Source of the DNA: an uncultured Alphaproteobacteria bacterium
Lineage (GTDB): Bacteria; Pseudomonadota; Alphaproteobacteria; RF32; CAG-239
Direction: 5' to 3'
Length of the DNA stretch: 51,002 nt
NCBI GenBank assembly: GCA_944391395.1
Contig: CALXTI010000008.1
Location: forward strand, 1 to 51,002
Below, piece by piece: positions 39,233 through 44,768 of the stretch. The stretch's first letter is position 1; every line of letters starts with the position of its first letter. Made by a program: the position numbers and the translations under genes. The notes under the pieces were generated by a model. The model ran no database searches. It was not told the DNA's origin and saw only the letters and a program-made list of their open reading frames with translations.

Positions 39233-39261
39233 TTGACGCGCGTTAAAAGTTGTTGTAGGTT
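39233..39261 (+). promoter_or_regulatory. Candidate ileS promoter
   Basis: TTGACG at 39233-39238, 17-nt spacer, TAGGTT at 39256-39261. Transcription from about 39268 would give a 30-nt stretch before the leader ORF and a total ileS leader of about 150 nt. Confidence 0.5.
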
Positions 39262-39293
39262 ATGCACTGTTGTTTTTAGAGTTTTCAAAGAGA

Positions 39294-39363
39294 AAAAGAT
39301 GCTTAATATTTACATACACATCATCGACATTATTATCCCCTAGGGGGATGGCATCTTTTATTT
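39294..39363 (+). promoter_or_regulatory. Putative attenuator of ileS
   Basis: Two nested pairings can form. The inner is ATCCCC (39335-39340) with GGGGAT (39344-39349) across TAG, which is also the leader stop codon. The outer pairs AAAAGATGC (39294-39302, covering the leader start codon) with GCATCTTTT (39351-39359). The run TTTTATTT (39356-39363) follows the last GC-containing pairs. A ribosome stalled on the Ile triplet at 39329-39337 would cover the left arm of the inner hairpin and melt the structure. This would allow ileS transcription when charged tRNA-Ile is scarce. The exact antiterminator is not clear; a translational version is also possible. Confidence 0.6.
39299..39343 (+). CDS. 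Isoleucine-rich leader peptide of ileS
   Basis: A 14-codon ORF, ATG to TAG, encoding MLNIYIHIIDIIIP. Seven of 14 residues are isoleucine, at positions 4, 6, 8, 9, 11, 12 and 13, using all three Ile codons (ATT three times, ATC three times, ATA once). An AAAGAGA-like weak ribosome site lies about ten bases upstream. It is 77 bp ahead of the gene for isoleucyl-tRNA synthetase. Amino-acid-biased leader ORFs are the hallmark of ribosome-mediated attenuation (as in ilv, his, trp and pheST control in enteric bacteria). The E. coli ilv leader likewise has a run of Ile codons followed by Pro. Function here is inferred from codon content and location. Confidence 0.72.
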   Translation: MLNIYIHIIDIIIP

Positions 39364-39420
39364 AAAATATCATAACTTTTCACAATTTAAAACGTTAACC
39401 AAAATAACAGGTACAAAACA

Positions 39421-42400
39421 ATGAAACATTACGCTGAAGTAAAGGCAAAGCCTGACTTTGTCGGGTTGGAAAAAGAAATTTTAAGATTCTGGGAAGAAGA
39501 TAAGACTTTCGAAAAATCCGTCCACAACCGCGACGGTGCCGCCGAATTCGTGTTTTACGACGGTCCGCCGTTTGCCAACGGTACGCCGCATTACGGACAT
39601 ATCATGGTCTCTTATGTCAAAGATGTGGTTGCCCGTTTCCAAACCATGAGCGGCAAAAAAGTTGAACGCCGTTTAGGTTGGGACTGTCACGGTCTGCCCG
39701 CCGAGATGTCCGCCGAAAAACAGTTGGGTGTTTCCGGCCGCAAACAAATCGAGCAGTACGGGGTCGGAAAATTTAACGACTTCTGCCGTTCGGACGTCTT
39801 GAAATATTCCGGCATTTGGGTGGAAATGTTCAAACGCATCGGCCGTTGGGTCGATTTTGACCATGACTACAAAACCATGGATCTGCCGTTTATGGAAAGC
39901 GTGATTAACAACTTCAAACAACTCTATGACAAAGGGCTGGTGTATGAAGATTATCGCGTTTTGCCGTATTCCTGGGCTGCCGAAACGCCCCTTTCCAACT
40001 TTGAGGTTAATCAAGGTTATCAAGACAAAACCGACAATGCCATCACTGTCATGTTCAAACTTGAAAACGGTATGAATATTTTGGTGTGGACCACCACACC
40101 GTGGACACTGCCTTCAAACCTGATGTTGGCTGTCGGCAACGATATTGATTATGCCGTGATGGAAGAAAACGGTCAAAAATACATCTTGGCGGAAGCCCTG
40201 CTTGGCCGTTATAAAAAGCAGCTTGAACATGCGGTCAAAGTCGGCAGCTTAAAGGGCTCCGAATTGGTCGGCTTAAGCTATGAGCCGATGTTTCCGTATT
40301 TCAAAAACTTAAAAGAAAAAGGCGCGTTTAAGGTCTTGAGCGGCGAATTTGTTTCCACTGAAGACGGTACCGGCATCGTGCATATCGCCCCCGGTTTCGG
40401 TCAGGACGACTTTGACGCCTGCCGCGCTTATGACGAAAACTTTCCGGTGGTCTGTCCGGTGGACGAAGCCGGCAAATTTACCGCCGAAGTACCGGATTAT
40501 GCCGGCAAGCAGGTTTTTGAAACCAACGAACCGATTATGGTTTGGCTTAAAGAACGCGGCCTGTTGGTCAAGAAGGAACAATACACCCACTCCTACCCGT
40601 TTTGCTGGCGTACCGACACGCCGTTGATTTACAAAGCCATGTCTTCTTGGTTTGTCAAGGTTACCGATTTCCGCGACAAGATGGTGCAAAACAATCAGCA
40701 AATCAACTGGGTGCCGGAACACATTAAAGACGGTCGTTTCGGCAAATGGCTGGAAGGCGCGCGCGACTGGTCAATCTCCCGCAATCGCTTCTGGGGCACA
40801 CCGATTCCGGTTTGGAAATCGGATAATCCGAAGTTTCCGCGGGTGGATGTGTTCGGCTCGTTAAAAGAAATCAAAGAAAAAACCGGCTTTGAAGTGACCA
40901 ACCTGCACAAACCTTATATTGACGAAGTGGTGTACCCCAATCCGGACGACCCGTCCGGTCAAACAATGATGCGCCGCGTCAGCGACGTGTTTGACTGCTG
41001 GTTCGAATCCGGTTCCATGCCATACGGGCAAGTACACTATCCGTTTGAAAACAAAGAATGGTTTGAAAATCATTTTCCGGCGGATTTTATTGTGGAGGCT
41101 ATGGACCAAACCCGCGGTTGGTTTTATACCTTAACGGTTTTATCAACAGCGCTGCACAACAAACCGGCGTTTAAAAACTGCATCTGCACCGGACTTTTGA
41201 TGGCCGAAGGCGGGCAAAAACTTTCCAAGCGCTTAAAAAATTATCCGGACCCGAATGAGGTCTTGGAAAATATCGGCTCGGAGGCTTTGCGTTGGTTTTT
41301 GGTGTCTTCACCGGTGTTGAAAGGCGGTAATCTGGCGGTTGACCAAGAAGGCAAAGAAATTGCCAAAGCCTTGCGGCCGGCGCTTATTCCATTGTGGAAC
41401 GCTTTTTATTTCTTCACGCTTTATGCCAACGCCGAAGAATATAAGGCCAAGGAGATTTCAACTTCTGACGATGCCATGGACAATTATATTCTTTCCAAAC
41501 TCAAACATTTACGCGACGTGGTCAAACACGGACTGGAAACTTATAATGTGTCTTTGGCAACCGATGAAACGGCGGCATTTATGGAAGTGTTGAACAACTG
41601 GTACATCCGCCGCAGCCGCGACCGTTTCTGGGAAGGCAACACACAGGCTTTTGACACGCTTTACACCGTTTTGCTCAATTTGAGCAAGATTTTGGCGCCG
41701 TTGATGCCGTTTGTCAGTGAATATGTGTTTAAAACCTTAACCGGTGAAGAATCCGTCCACTTGACCGATTATCCGGAACTTTCCGACATCAATGCCGATG
41801 ACAAGCTGATGAAAGAAATGGATTTCTTGCAGGATTTGTGTTCGGCCGGAAAATTCATTCGCGAAGAGAAAAACCTGCGTAACCGCCTGCCTTTGGCAAG
41901 CCTGACCTTGGTCGGCGCCGAACTGACAAAAGAATATCAGGATATTGTCAAAGACGAGCTCAATGTCAAAGAAATCAAATTTGACAACAACCTCGCCGCT
42001 TACGCCGATAAAAAGCTTTATCTCTACACGCCGCTTTTGGGCAAAACTTTGGGCAAAGACATGGGCGCGGTGATGGCCGCCTACAAACAAGGCAACTGGA
42101 GCTTAAACACCGACGGAACCTTGAACATCGCCGGCAAAACTTTAACGCCCGACTTGTTTGAAGTGCGTCTGGACATGAAGGAAGGCGTCGCCGGACGCGC
42201 TTTTGCCGACAACAAAGCCGTGGTTACCTTGGACACCAACGTAACCGACAGCTTGAAACGCGAAGGCATGGCGCGCGATTTTGTCCGCATGGTGCAAACC
42301 TTGCGCAAGGACAAAAACTTTAATATTTCCGACCGAATTGAGCTTTGTTGGAAAACCGACGATGCCGAATTGGCGTTGGCCTTGAACGAAAACAAAGATT

Positions 42401-42507
42401 ATATCGCCGAACAAGTGCTGGCAGTTAAAGTCGATAACACTTGCCCCGGCGGCACGGCCGATAATATCGAGGGCAAAAACATAACCTTTGATGCCAAAGT
42501 GGCTTAA
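39421..42507 (+). CDS. ileS: Isoleucyl-tRNA synthetase, type 2 (eukaryote/archaea-like)
   Basis: 1028 residues, class I synthetase charging tRNA-Ile. HIGH motif is HYGH at 57-60; the WDCHGLPAE and PYSWAAETPLSNFE segments and the CP1 editing domain (TTTPWTLPSNL, DGTGIVHIAPGFGQDDF) follow. The second signature is KLSKR at 600-604, within GGQKLSKRLKNYPDPNE. KLSKR/KMSKR with LKNYPDP, the greater length and lack of a C-terminal zinc finger mark the type-2 clade, known for natural mupirocin tolerance; standard bacterial type-1 enzymes have KMSKS. It is the only ileS in the window; whether a type-1 copy exists elsewhere is unknown. It lies behind a leader-peptide attenuator and ends in a good terminator. 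Confidence 0.96.
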   Translation: MKHYAEVKAKPDFVGLEKEILRFWEEDKTFEKSVHNRDGAAEFVFYDGPPFANGTPHYGHIMVSYVKDVVARFQTMSGKKVERRLGWDCHGLPAEMSAEKQLGVSGRKQIEQYGVGKFNDFCRSDVLKYSGIWVEMFKRIGRWVDFDHDYKTMDLPFMESVINNFKQLYDKGLVYEDYRVLPYSWAAETPLSNFEVNQGYQDKTDNAITVMFKLENGMNILVWTTTPWTLPSNLMLAVGNDIDYAVMEENGQKYILAEALLGRYKKQLEHAVKVGSLKGSELVGLSYEPMFPYFKNLKEKGAFKVLSGEFVSTEDGTGIVHIAPGFGQDDFDACRAYDENFPVVCPVDEAGKFTAEVPDYAGKQVFETNEPIMVWLKERGLLVKKEQYTHSYPFCWRTDTPLIYKAMSSWFVKVTDFRDKMVQNNQQINWVPEHIKDGRFGKWLEGARDWSISRNRFWGTPIPVWKSDNPKFPRVDVFGSLKEIKEKTGFEVTNLHKPYIDEVVYPNPDDPSGQTMMRRVSDVFDCWFESGSMPYGQVHYPFENKEWFENHFPADFIVEAMDQTRGWFYTLTVLSTALHNKPAFKNCICTGLLMAEGGQKLSKRLKNYPDPNEVLENIGSEALRWFLVSSPVLKGGNLAVDQEGKEIAKALRPALIPLWNAFYFFTLYANAEEYKAKEISTSDDAMDNYILSKLKHLRDVVKHGLETYNVSLATDETAAFMEVLNNWYIRRSRDRFWEGNTQAFDTLYTVLLNLSKILAPLMPFVSEYVFKTLTGEESVHLTDYPELSDINADDKLMKEMDFLQDLCSAGKFIREEKNLRNRLPLASLTLVGAELTKEYQDIVKDELNVKEIKFDNNLAAYADKKLYLYTPLLGKTLGKDMGAVMAAYKQGNWSLNTDGTLNIAGKTLTPDLFEVRLDMKEGVAGRAFADNKAVVTLDTNVTDSLKREGMARDFVRMVQTLRKDKNFNISDRIELCWKTDDAELALALNENKDYIAEQVLAVKVDNTCPGGTADNIEGKNITFDAKVA

Positions 42508-42630: not shown

Positions 42631-43878
42631 ATGGAAAGCCAAATCGAAAAATTTAACCGACGCAAACAAAAGACCGAGGCGTTGAAAAAAAACAAAGGAG
42701 TTGCAGAAATGTCTAAAGAAAACAAAACATTGGAAGAACAATTTGCAGAGGCTAAAAAGGCTTGGGAAACCGCCGGTTTAGACCCGGATGATTTTCCGAA
42801 AGAAGTTACGGCGGAAAATCTGAACATTATCCGTCAAAAAATTATTGACGCACAGGATGCGAAAAAACAAACTTCCGAGAACGAAAAACAAAACGAGCAA
42901 GATAAAAATAAGGAAGATAAAGAGAACAAAGGCACTCCGACCGAGGATAAAGAAACTCCGGTAACAGAGGCAACCGGTGAAGAAAAAGACGACAAGACAG
43001 AAGATAACAAGCGGCAAACACTTGACGTCGGCACAACCGAAGAAACTCCTTCACCGGAACTAAACTGGATTGAAGAAAAACGCAAATTCTGGAAAGAATA
43101 CGCCGAATCTATTGAAAACACCTTTGAAAACGACCCGGCCAAAGATGTTGAGACCAAGACTTTCAGCTGCGTATTAAGCAAAGATGAGAAAAAAGGCGAA
43201 ATTAAATATACAGCGCCGGACAAAGTTCAGGTCGGTAAAGAATCTCATCTGGAAATATACAGCGGTGTGGTAAAAGACGCTGTGAAAAATAATTTAAGCA
43301 TCACTTTCGGAGCAACTTTGGATGATAAACAAAAAGCTTTGCTGCTGGCCGCATGCTTAATGAGCAAAGAAAGATATACCGACGGCGCCGAAGTGGCAAT
43401 GGTCAATCCGCCGAAAATCGATTTGAATGCGGAATATTTCAAACAACTTCCGGAAAACGTTCAAAGCACGTTAAAAGAATATACCTTAAAAGAACAGGAA
43501 AAAGCCCGGCAGGAAGAAATCAACACCAAACTCAACGATGTCCGCGGCCGCTTAAACGCCAACGCCCAAGAGCCAAAAAGCGCCGAAAACATCGATAAAC
43601 GCTACGAAATCAGAAAAGAACAGGTTGGTTTGATGCGGGAAAAAATGTCGCCGGAACAAGCCGATGCACGCAGACAAAAAGAAGAAGAGCGTGAGAAAAT
43701 CATGGCGGCCAGGCTGGGCATCACCGGCGAATATAAAACCAAAAACGCCAAAGGTGAAGAACGAATTGTCAAGAAAATCAACGGGTTGGATACCGAAAAA
43801 GACGATAAAGGAAATTTGCGTATTTCACAAGAAATACAAGATATGTTAAGAAAAAAATACGGTAAAGAAGGTAAATAA
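42631..43878 (+). CDS. Unknown charged protein, first gene of a two-gene unit
   Basis: 415 residues; GGAG is seven bases before the ATG. No signal peptide and no TM segment, so cytosolic or a substrate of a signal-less export route. Residues 1-75 are helical (ESQIEKFNRRKQKTEALKK, TLEEQFAEAKKAWETAGLDPDDF). Residues about 75-145 are a low-complexity Glu/Lys/Asp/Thr linker. A more globular middle part at about 150-275 contains LNWIEEKRKFWKEYAESI and VVKDAVKNNLSITFGATLDDKQKALLLAACLM. A basic-acidic helical tail follows (KARQEEINTKLNDVRGRL, SPEQADARRQKEEEREKIMAARLG). I do not recognise the family. It is 2 bp from the next gene and surely cotranscribed. Confidence 0.75.
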   Translation: MESQIEKFNRRKQKTEALKKNKGVAEMSKENKTLEEQFAEAKKAWETAGLDPDDFPKEVTAENLNIIRQKIIDAQDAKKQTSENEKQNEQDKNKEDKENKGTPTEDKETPVTEATGEEKDDKTEDNKRQTLDVGTTEETPSPELNWIEEKRKFWKEYAESIENTFENDPAKDVETKTFSCVLSKDEKKGEIKYTAPDKVQVGKESHLEIYSGVVKDAVKNNLSITFGATLDDKQKALLLAACLMSKERYTDGAEVAMVNPPKIDLNAEYFKQLPENVQSTLKEYTLKEQEKARQEEINTKLNDVRGRLNANAQEPKSAENIDKRYEIRKEQVGLMREKMSPEQADARRQKEEEREKIMAARLGITGEYKTKNAKGEERIVKKINGLDTEKDDKGNLRISQEIQDMLRKKYGKEGK

Positions 43879-43880
43879 TC

Positions 43881-44768
43881 ATGGCTGACACGGGAACCGA
43901 ATTTTTAAGTTTTTTGAAAGCGAATTATCCTGAAGATTATTCCAAATTGTCTTCGGATGCGGTTTCCGATGCCTTGGTTAATGCCGTTTTTACAAAACAT
44001 CAGGAACAATTCGATATCTGGAAAAAGATTCCCGAATATATACGCGACAAATATAACGGACGAATTCCAAGTGAAATTATGGAACTCGCACGCACCGACC
44101 CGAATCTGACCAGCCTGGAAATCCAAAATATTGAGAAGAATCGTCCGGATGCCAGTTATTCCGTCAATTTGGATGTGCTTAATTTTGCCAAAGAGGATTA
44201 TATGGCCGTCGGTGTTGCGACTACGGCCATTCTGCTGAAAGGATATTCGCAAAAAGCAGCTCAATGCCTGGCTTACGCAAAACAAATCCGCCATAAGTTG
44301 GCAAACGACGAATCTTTGGGTATTTCCGCCGAACAAAAAAAGCAATTATGGCAGGAAACCCGGATAGACGACCAGAAAACAATTAAAAAAGACTGGTGTG
44401 AAAATCAGCCGGAAAAAATGGCCGTGCACGTCTTAAAACAATTGGATCGCGGTAAAATCGACAAAGATGCAGCTTTGCCGAAATTGGATACCTTATTTAA
44501 GAAAGTGAAAGAGCAAAAACGTGAAAAAGCTCTTGCCGAATATTTAATCTCGCCGCAAGGCCGTTATCAGCATTATAAAGCAGAAACAAAAAATATTCTG
44601 ACCGGATTGGCGGAAAATCACGGCATTGAACTTAATTTAGACAATTTGATACAACTTCAACAAGTCAGACAGCGCATAAATGACAAAAACAAGCCGGCGC
44701 AAAAGCCTGTCAATCAGCCGCAAAACATATCCAGATCCAACATTGTTCAATCGCAACTCGGCGGTTAA
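43881..44768 (+). CDS. Unknown soluble protein, second gene of a two-gene unit
   Basis: 295 residues, mainly helical, with no signal peptide or TM segment. Segments with repeated helix pattern: TEFLSFLKANYPEDYSKLSS, ALVNAVFTKHQEQFDIWKKIPEYIRDKYNG, and a middle part VGVATTAILLKGYSQKAAQCLAYAKQIRHKLA. The C-terminal 30 residues are Gln/Asn/Pro-rich and probably unstructured. No catalytic motif was found. The start follows the previous stop by 2 bp with weak AAGGT upstream, so it depends on coupled translation. Both proteins share a helical, charged style and may bind one another. Function unknown. Confidence 0.75.
   Translation: MADTGTEFLSFLKANYPEDYSKLSSDAVSDALVNAVFTKHQEQFDIWKKIPEYIRDKYNGRIPSEIMELARTDPNLTSLEIQNIEKNRPDASYSVNLDVLNFAKEDYMAVGVATTAILLKGYSQKAAQCLAYAKQIRHKLANDESLGISAEQKKQLWQETRIDDQKTIKKDWCENQPEKMAVHVLKQLDRGKIDKDAALPKLDTLFKKVKEQKREKALAEYLISPQGRYQHYKAETKNILTGLAENHGIELNLDNLIQLQQVRQRINDKNKPAQKPVNQPQNISRSNIVQSQLGG

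Follow-up and report, generated by a model that had tools for sequence, protein, structure and literature searches.

Candidate isoleucine-responsive leader-peptide attenuation of ileS in Alphaproteobacteria

Does the short isoleucine-rich open reading frame (ORF) that precedes ileS, the gene for isoleucyl-tRNA synthetase (IleRS), in an uncultured alphaproteobacterium tie expression of the synthetase to the supply of Ile-tRNA? We examined this question in a stretch of 51,002 nucleotides (hereafter the window), a contig of a 1.48-Mb draft genome, and in the regions upstream of ileS in related genomes. We place the window in the Alphaproteobacteria because one genome of its class encodes an IleRS whose N-terminus shares 96% identity with the Shimia (Rhodobacteraceae) enzyme. 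Comparison supports an Ile-enriched ORF with a fixed link to ileS, a helix at the leader start (P1), and a second hairpin (P2) followed by a U-run in a constant layout. Judged from these sequence features, the locus is likely to be an isoleucine-responsive leader-peptide attenuator of ileS.

Leader ORF, hairpins and ileS in the window

The initial annotation described a 14-codon ORF with seven Ile codons whose TAG lies within an ATCCCC/GGGGAT hairpin, and a second pairing between the leader start region and a downstream arm. Direct reading of the sequence confirmed the former and folding recovered the latter (Table 1). The Ile codons are, in order, ATT, ATA, ATC, ATC, ATT, ATT and ATC, and the ORF contains no Cys codons. 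The second pairing, P1, comprises ten pairs, one of them U-G (AAAAGATGCT:GGCATCTTTT). In the fold, P1 stacks directly on P2 and runs into the U-run, giving a terminator-like stem interrupted by the leader ORF. The segment 39290–39370 folds better than its shuffles (z = −2.5, with 3 of 200 shuffles equally good), and one terminator-like site was found at 39333–39351, against 0.4 expected. The Rfam search gave no T-box match; its best match, RT-17 on the other strand, scored below the gathering score and was absent from 11 relatives, and we treated it as chance.

The succession of promoter, leader ORF, hairpins, T run and ileS put forward in the initial annotation holds from the leader ORF onwards. 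A promoter-like sequence is present as well, but its 8/12 match falls below the scanner threshold and the matches in relatives are better. From this sequence, the transcript is expected to start at ~39268.

Table 1. Features of the ileS leader region, in coordinates of the window
Feature	Coordinates	Strand	Description
Promoter-like TTGACG-17-TAGGTT	39233–39261	+	Direct reading; 8/12 match
P1 5′ arm	39294–39303	+	Overlaps the start codon of the leader and the purine-rich stretch before it
Putative leader ORF	39299–39343	+	ATG at 39299, TAG at 39341–39343; encodes MLNIYIHIIDIIIP, then stop; 7 Ile in 14 codons; conserved in 68 distinct leaders
Codon 6, AUA (Ile)	39314–39316	+	Most conserved internal Ile codon; ATA in 35/46 leaders of 42 nt
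Last three Ile codons, ATT ATT ATC	39329–39337	+	Directly 5′ of P2 and overlapping P2
Hairpin P2	39335–39349	+	ATCCCC 39335–39340; loop = TAG stop codon; GGGGAT 39344–39349
P1 3′ arm	39350–39359	+	From the fold; compensatory changes in relatives
U-rich run TTTTATTT	39356–39363	+	At the end of the P1/P2 stem
ileS, isoleucyl-tRNA synthetase	39421–42507	+	1028 aa; ORF reading and protein comparison

The encoded IleRS is 73–99% identical to its counterparts within the order and about 30% identical to most others in the class; following the initial annotation and this low identity, we call the gene type 2. Two consecutive ORFs of 415 and 295 aa, rich in charged residues, lie directly 3′ of ileS (42631–44768).

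A search for ilvD (dihydroxy-acid dehydratase) found no match in the window's genome, which is 100% complete by estimate; the same search was positive in 14 of 14 control genomes. The lack of a match points to isoleucine/valine auxotrophy; the organism is probably an isoleucine auxotroph, in which charging would depend on uptake and on IleRS.

Conservation of the leader and its stems within the order

We compared the 30 genomes with the best ileS matches, which comprise 29 relatives and the genome of the window itself. In 27 of them, a leader ORF 70–120 nt before ileS ends in Pro-stop within the P2 hairpin; the exceptions are two genomes of one genus and one from a distant family. Of 101 family genomes, 32 carry the exact P2 pattern ATCCCYTRRGGGGAT and 50 carry the pattern ATCCCTTAGGGGAT (82/101 in total), in one copy per genome save for a single genome with two, and reversed control patterns had no match in the same 101 genomes. 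The other 19 comprise two with P2 variants (L017 and L022), the 12 sampled members of genus g4, and five with no assigned form. ileS lies directly downstream, with the leader in frame, at 59 of 60 loci fetched via the P2 patterns; the remaining locus has a short contig flank. The motif is missing from all 12 sampled g4 genomes, and in two of them (G005 and G019; L027 and L028) ileS is present and the leader absent. As a second family of the order has the motif, its absence from g4 suggests loss in that genus. Within the window's genome, no cognate-rich leader was found at nine other synthetase genes.

After duplicate removal, the order yielded 68 distinct leaders, one of which (L029) comes from the second family; these sequences are related, and the numbers that follow are not fully independent. 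The short ORF before ileS ends in I-I-P-stop in 67 of 68 leaders and in T-I-P in one. An ATG lies 36–60 nt upstream in the frame of the stop codon in all 68, compared with one and two leaders for the other frames, and ORF lengths are 39, 42, 45, 48, 51 and 54 nt. The stop codon varies in identity (TAG 48, TAA 16, TGA 4) and is constant in position. Leaving aside the start and the last three codons, Ile accounts for 204 of 708 variable residues (28.8%), as against 85 ± 8 in composition shuffles (12%; z = 14.7) and 10.5% and 5.9% in the other two frames, so that the leader frame is three to five times richer. Apart from this enrichment, the remaining residues vary freely. Position −2 is ATC in 68/68, position −3 is ATT in 67/68 and position −4 is Ile in 51/68 (75%); codon 6 is Ile in 37 of the 46 leaders of 42 nt, 35 of these using ATA. 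AUA accounts for 44% of the Ile codons of the variable part; its share is 7.6% in ileS genes and 16.5% in the long ORFs of the window. Together, these comparisons support an Ile-enriched ORF under coding constraint and linked to ileS.

Across the 68 leaders, P1 joins the start region (−14 to +12) to sequence 0–14 nt past P2. The P1 arm shifts register between leaders in a MAFFT alignment of one subgroup, and we therefore used an arm-swap test in place of a covariance model. Own arms paired better than swapped arms in all 68 leaders taken together (z = −9.6) and in 30 representatives less than 65% identical in the 5′ arm (z = −5.3), whereas control segments gave no such signal (upstream, z = −0.4; downstream, +0.5; ORF middle, +1.3). 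The sequences re-pair in different ways: GATGC:GCATC in the window, ATGCCC:GGGCAT in L006, GATGAA:TTCATC in L008, ATATGTGCA:TGCACATAT in L010, GAAAAGC:GCTTTTC in L015 and TACGCAAA:TTTGCGTA in L016. Maintenance of P1 through compensatory changes is thus supported. Its position differs: P1 follows P2 directly in about half of leaders and lies further on in the other half. In about half of relatives, including the ATGTGC:GCACAT type, it lies beyond the U-rich run and therefore cannot be the terminator stem in those leaders.

P2 occurs as a six-pair triloop or a five-pair tetraloop, also with U-G wobbles, and varies little because its 5′ arm is coding. In 66 leaders, the positions 5–12 nt after P2 are 56–86% T, against about 40% further on, and this U-run holds the same position relative to P2 in both P1 groups. 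P2 alone stands 4 nt away from the U-run, a spacing ill suited to an intrinsic terminator. Terminator features stand beside the regulatory codons clearly in the window and less so where P1 lies beyond the U-run. Promoter-like sequences recur upstream of the ORF in relatives, with matches of at least 9/12 in 85% of the 68 leaders against 24% of shuffles; they resemble TTGACT-17-TATTAA and stand at about the same distance from the ATG as in the window.

Isoleucine leaders elsewhere in the class

An Ile-rich small ORF was also present in 70 of 80 Rhodobacteraceae loci with type-1 ileS (L112–L191). The typical leader ends A-I-I-I-R-I-I-S-P-A-L-stop, mostly 75–118 nt upstream of ileS, and its stop codon lies in the loop of a hairpin of the CCCGGCGCTC...GAGCGCCGGG type. 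A stricter definition, I-I-x-P with stop, keeps 54 leaders, which we used for codon counts: 53 have an in-frame ATG (other frames, 2 and 8), and the codons ATT, ATA and CGA keep set positions. Past P2, a second hairpin shows a weak own-versus-swap signal (z = −2.4), and a 2:3 alternative pairing found no support (z = +0.5). No P1-like pairing was found in Rhodobacteraceae (z = +0.9), which suggests that P1 is particular to the order of the window.

A strict screen of 79 class members for leaders with four Ile in six codons gave one match, in a Rhodobacteraceae relative, and was not above the antisense control. An I-I-x-P small ORF occurs in 14 of 98 class-wide ileS upstream regions, against 2 of 98 in the antisense control. 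Scattered Alphaproteobacteria outside the Rhodobacteraceae likewise carry Ile leaders ahead of type-1 ileS. The nucleotide core GAATTATCNNCCCGG has 35 matches in 192 genomes, against one for the reversed pattern, and about half of 30 inspected loci sit 45–230 nt before ileS. The same core, with the R-I-I-x-P frame and hairpin, also lies away from ileS at L282, L287, L293 and L294 (locus position ~1500); at L282, L293 and L294, leader and hairpin precede genes other than ileS.

An ancient, class-wide Ile leader of ileS is a possibility that we put forward tentatively and hold to be rather unlikely. It would take the form of R-I-I-x-P(A/V) leaders in several GC-rich families, in which a GC-rich hairpin encloses or adjoins the stop codon (core CGAATTATCnnCCCGG), and of I-I-P-stop in the window's order, where CGA ATT ATC CCC TAR GGGGAT is still present in some leaders. 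The ribosome might stall at the shared ending, through the nascent peptide or the codon context, and this leader would also have been placed before a few other genes.

Proposed mechanism and relation to known systems

The ribosome-mediated attenuation sensing Ile-tRNA that the initial annotation proposed draws support from the ORF, its Ile enrichment, the U-run and the compensatory changes in P1; both the short Ile-rich ORF, with its other codons varying, and the start-region pairing that it had singled out for checking in relatives proved to be conserved there. The promoter-like sequences upstream of the ORF in relatives speak in the same direction. From this layout we infer stalling, termination, the direction of the response and a role of P1 at the leader start site. 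Transcription would start ~30 nt upstream of the leader ORF, which a ribosome would then translate behind RNA polymerase. With ample Ile-tRNA, the ribosome would pass quickly and release at the stop codon within P2; first P2 and then P1 would close, and polymerase would stop at the U-run or be otherwise blocked, limiting ileS. With Ile-tRNA short, the ribosome would stall at AUA codon 6, covering the P1 5′ arm, or alternatively at the final Ile codons, covering the P2 5′ arm, a coverage reckoned from standard ribosome footprint sizes. The stem could then not close, and readthrough would transcribe ileS. Such occlusion of P1 or P2 is proposed in place of an antiterminator, for which single-sequence folds showed no pairing. 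Where P1 lies beyond the U-run, its closing may instead block the start site of the leader once it has been used, as is known for the trp leader.

The leader might sense Ile-tRNA and yet control ileS through Rho or translation instead of intrinsic termination at P2/P1, a tenable alternative that we consider somewhat unlikely. The position of P1 past the U-run in about half of leaders fits it, as does the G-poor RNA between leader and ileS (6.5% G, 16.6% C). Against this, the U-run keeps its place relative to P2 in both groups, no pairing hiding the ileS ribosome site was seen in folds, and 70–120 nt from stop codon to ileS is long for re-initiation.

Nascent-peptide arrest at Pro-stop, as in TnaC, would make the leader a sensor of free isoleucine or another signal and not of simple Ile-tRNA shortage. 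All leaders end in Pro-stop, with I-I before Pro in 67/68, and ileS leaders of other families end in a related R-I-I-x-P motif. Yet the rest of the peptide is free to vary save for its Ile content, the CCC/CCT of P2 in itself requires Pro, and the AUA enrichment points to codons and not to residues alone; we regard such arrest as improbable.

A DNA operator or internal promoter, with the Ile codons as a by-product, could be read from TTTACA-16-TATTAT within the ORF and the palindrome ATCCCCTAGGGGGAT, and internal matches of at least 9/12 do occur in 59% of leaders against 10% of shuffles. The TTTACA–TATTAT spacing, however, is 16, 19 and 22 nt for ORFs of 42, 45 and 48 nt, and therefore the TTTACA-like hexamer follows the reading frame and not promoter spacing. 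U-G wobbles in L017 and L022 keep the RNA stem and break the DNA palindrome, and both P1 pairing and frame conservation are left unexplained. On the codon-stepped spacing we rejected this reading, which we rate as very improbable. A reading as a small hydrophobic toxin or as a membrane peptide with no part in ileS control, which a short, Ile-rich peptide might bring to mind, is scarcely credible given its place on the same strand directly before ileS in nearly all examined loci, its single copy per genome with one exception, the polar and charged residues scattered through it and the stop codon fixed within a hairpin.

The leader-peptide attenuator thus preferred extends this mode of control to ileS with strong comparative support. 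Such ileS leaders span AT-rich and GC-rich Alphaproteobacteria and both enzyme types, and their occurrence in cultivable Rhodobacteraceae makes the Ile-leader idea directly testable. The layout is compact: the stop codon sits in a hairpin loop, a movable helix would close the leader start site, and no separate antiterminator was seen. The preference for AUA as sensing codon bears on which Ile tRNA such switches monitor.

Like the enteric pheST, trp, his and ilv attenuators, the ileS leader places a cognate-codon-rich peptide upstream of the gene; those systems use four-segment alternative hairpins, whereas no such antiterminator was seen here. In the trp leader, the ribosome site of the leader is masked by a distal RNA segment. 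T-box riboswitches of ileS in Firmicutes and Actinobacteria serve the same gene and signal; unlike them, the leader in the window is proposed to sense through a translated ORF.

Among synthetase genes, pheST, trpS, leuS and cysS are established or predicted targets of leader-peptide attenuation (PMC1262725, PMC8632094). The uORFC-8-2 motif before cysS in Rhodobacterales, a predicted ribosome-mediated attenuator, likewise joins an alphaproteobacterial synthetase gene to a short ORF, cognate codons in the first stem and a U-run (PMC8632094). It differs in sensing Cys through tandem Cys codons and in structure, and no helix closing the leader start site, as proposed for the ileS leader, is described for it (PMC8632094). 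In actinobacterial ilvB leaders, too, short ORFs contain runs of Ile/Val/Leu codons that overlap terminator hairpins, and poly-U follows, but these leaders belong to a biosynthetic operon in another phylum (PMC1262725). They are among the accepted leader attenuators without an antiterminator; the paper cites reporter work in which substitution of the regulatory codons had no effect (PMC1262725).

The initial annotation knew of no described ileS leader peptide in Alphaproteobacteria, a remark that goes too far. In 2014, an 'ileS leader CDS (CCNA_03934)' was named for Caulobacter crescentus, where it served solely as the negative control of an unrelated motility assay (PMC4117421); it too is a short coding sequence carried by the ileS mRNA in an alphaproteobacterium. 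We found no paper analysing an ileS leader peptide in the open-access literature, and an earlier prediction in subscription papers is possible. The class of mechanism is known, and the ileS target and layout are new in detail: what is added is the comparative evidence for ileS, the stop-in-hairpin layout, the helix proposed to close the start site and the preference for AUA.
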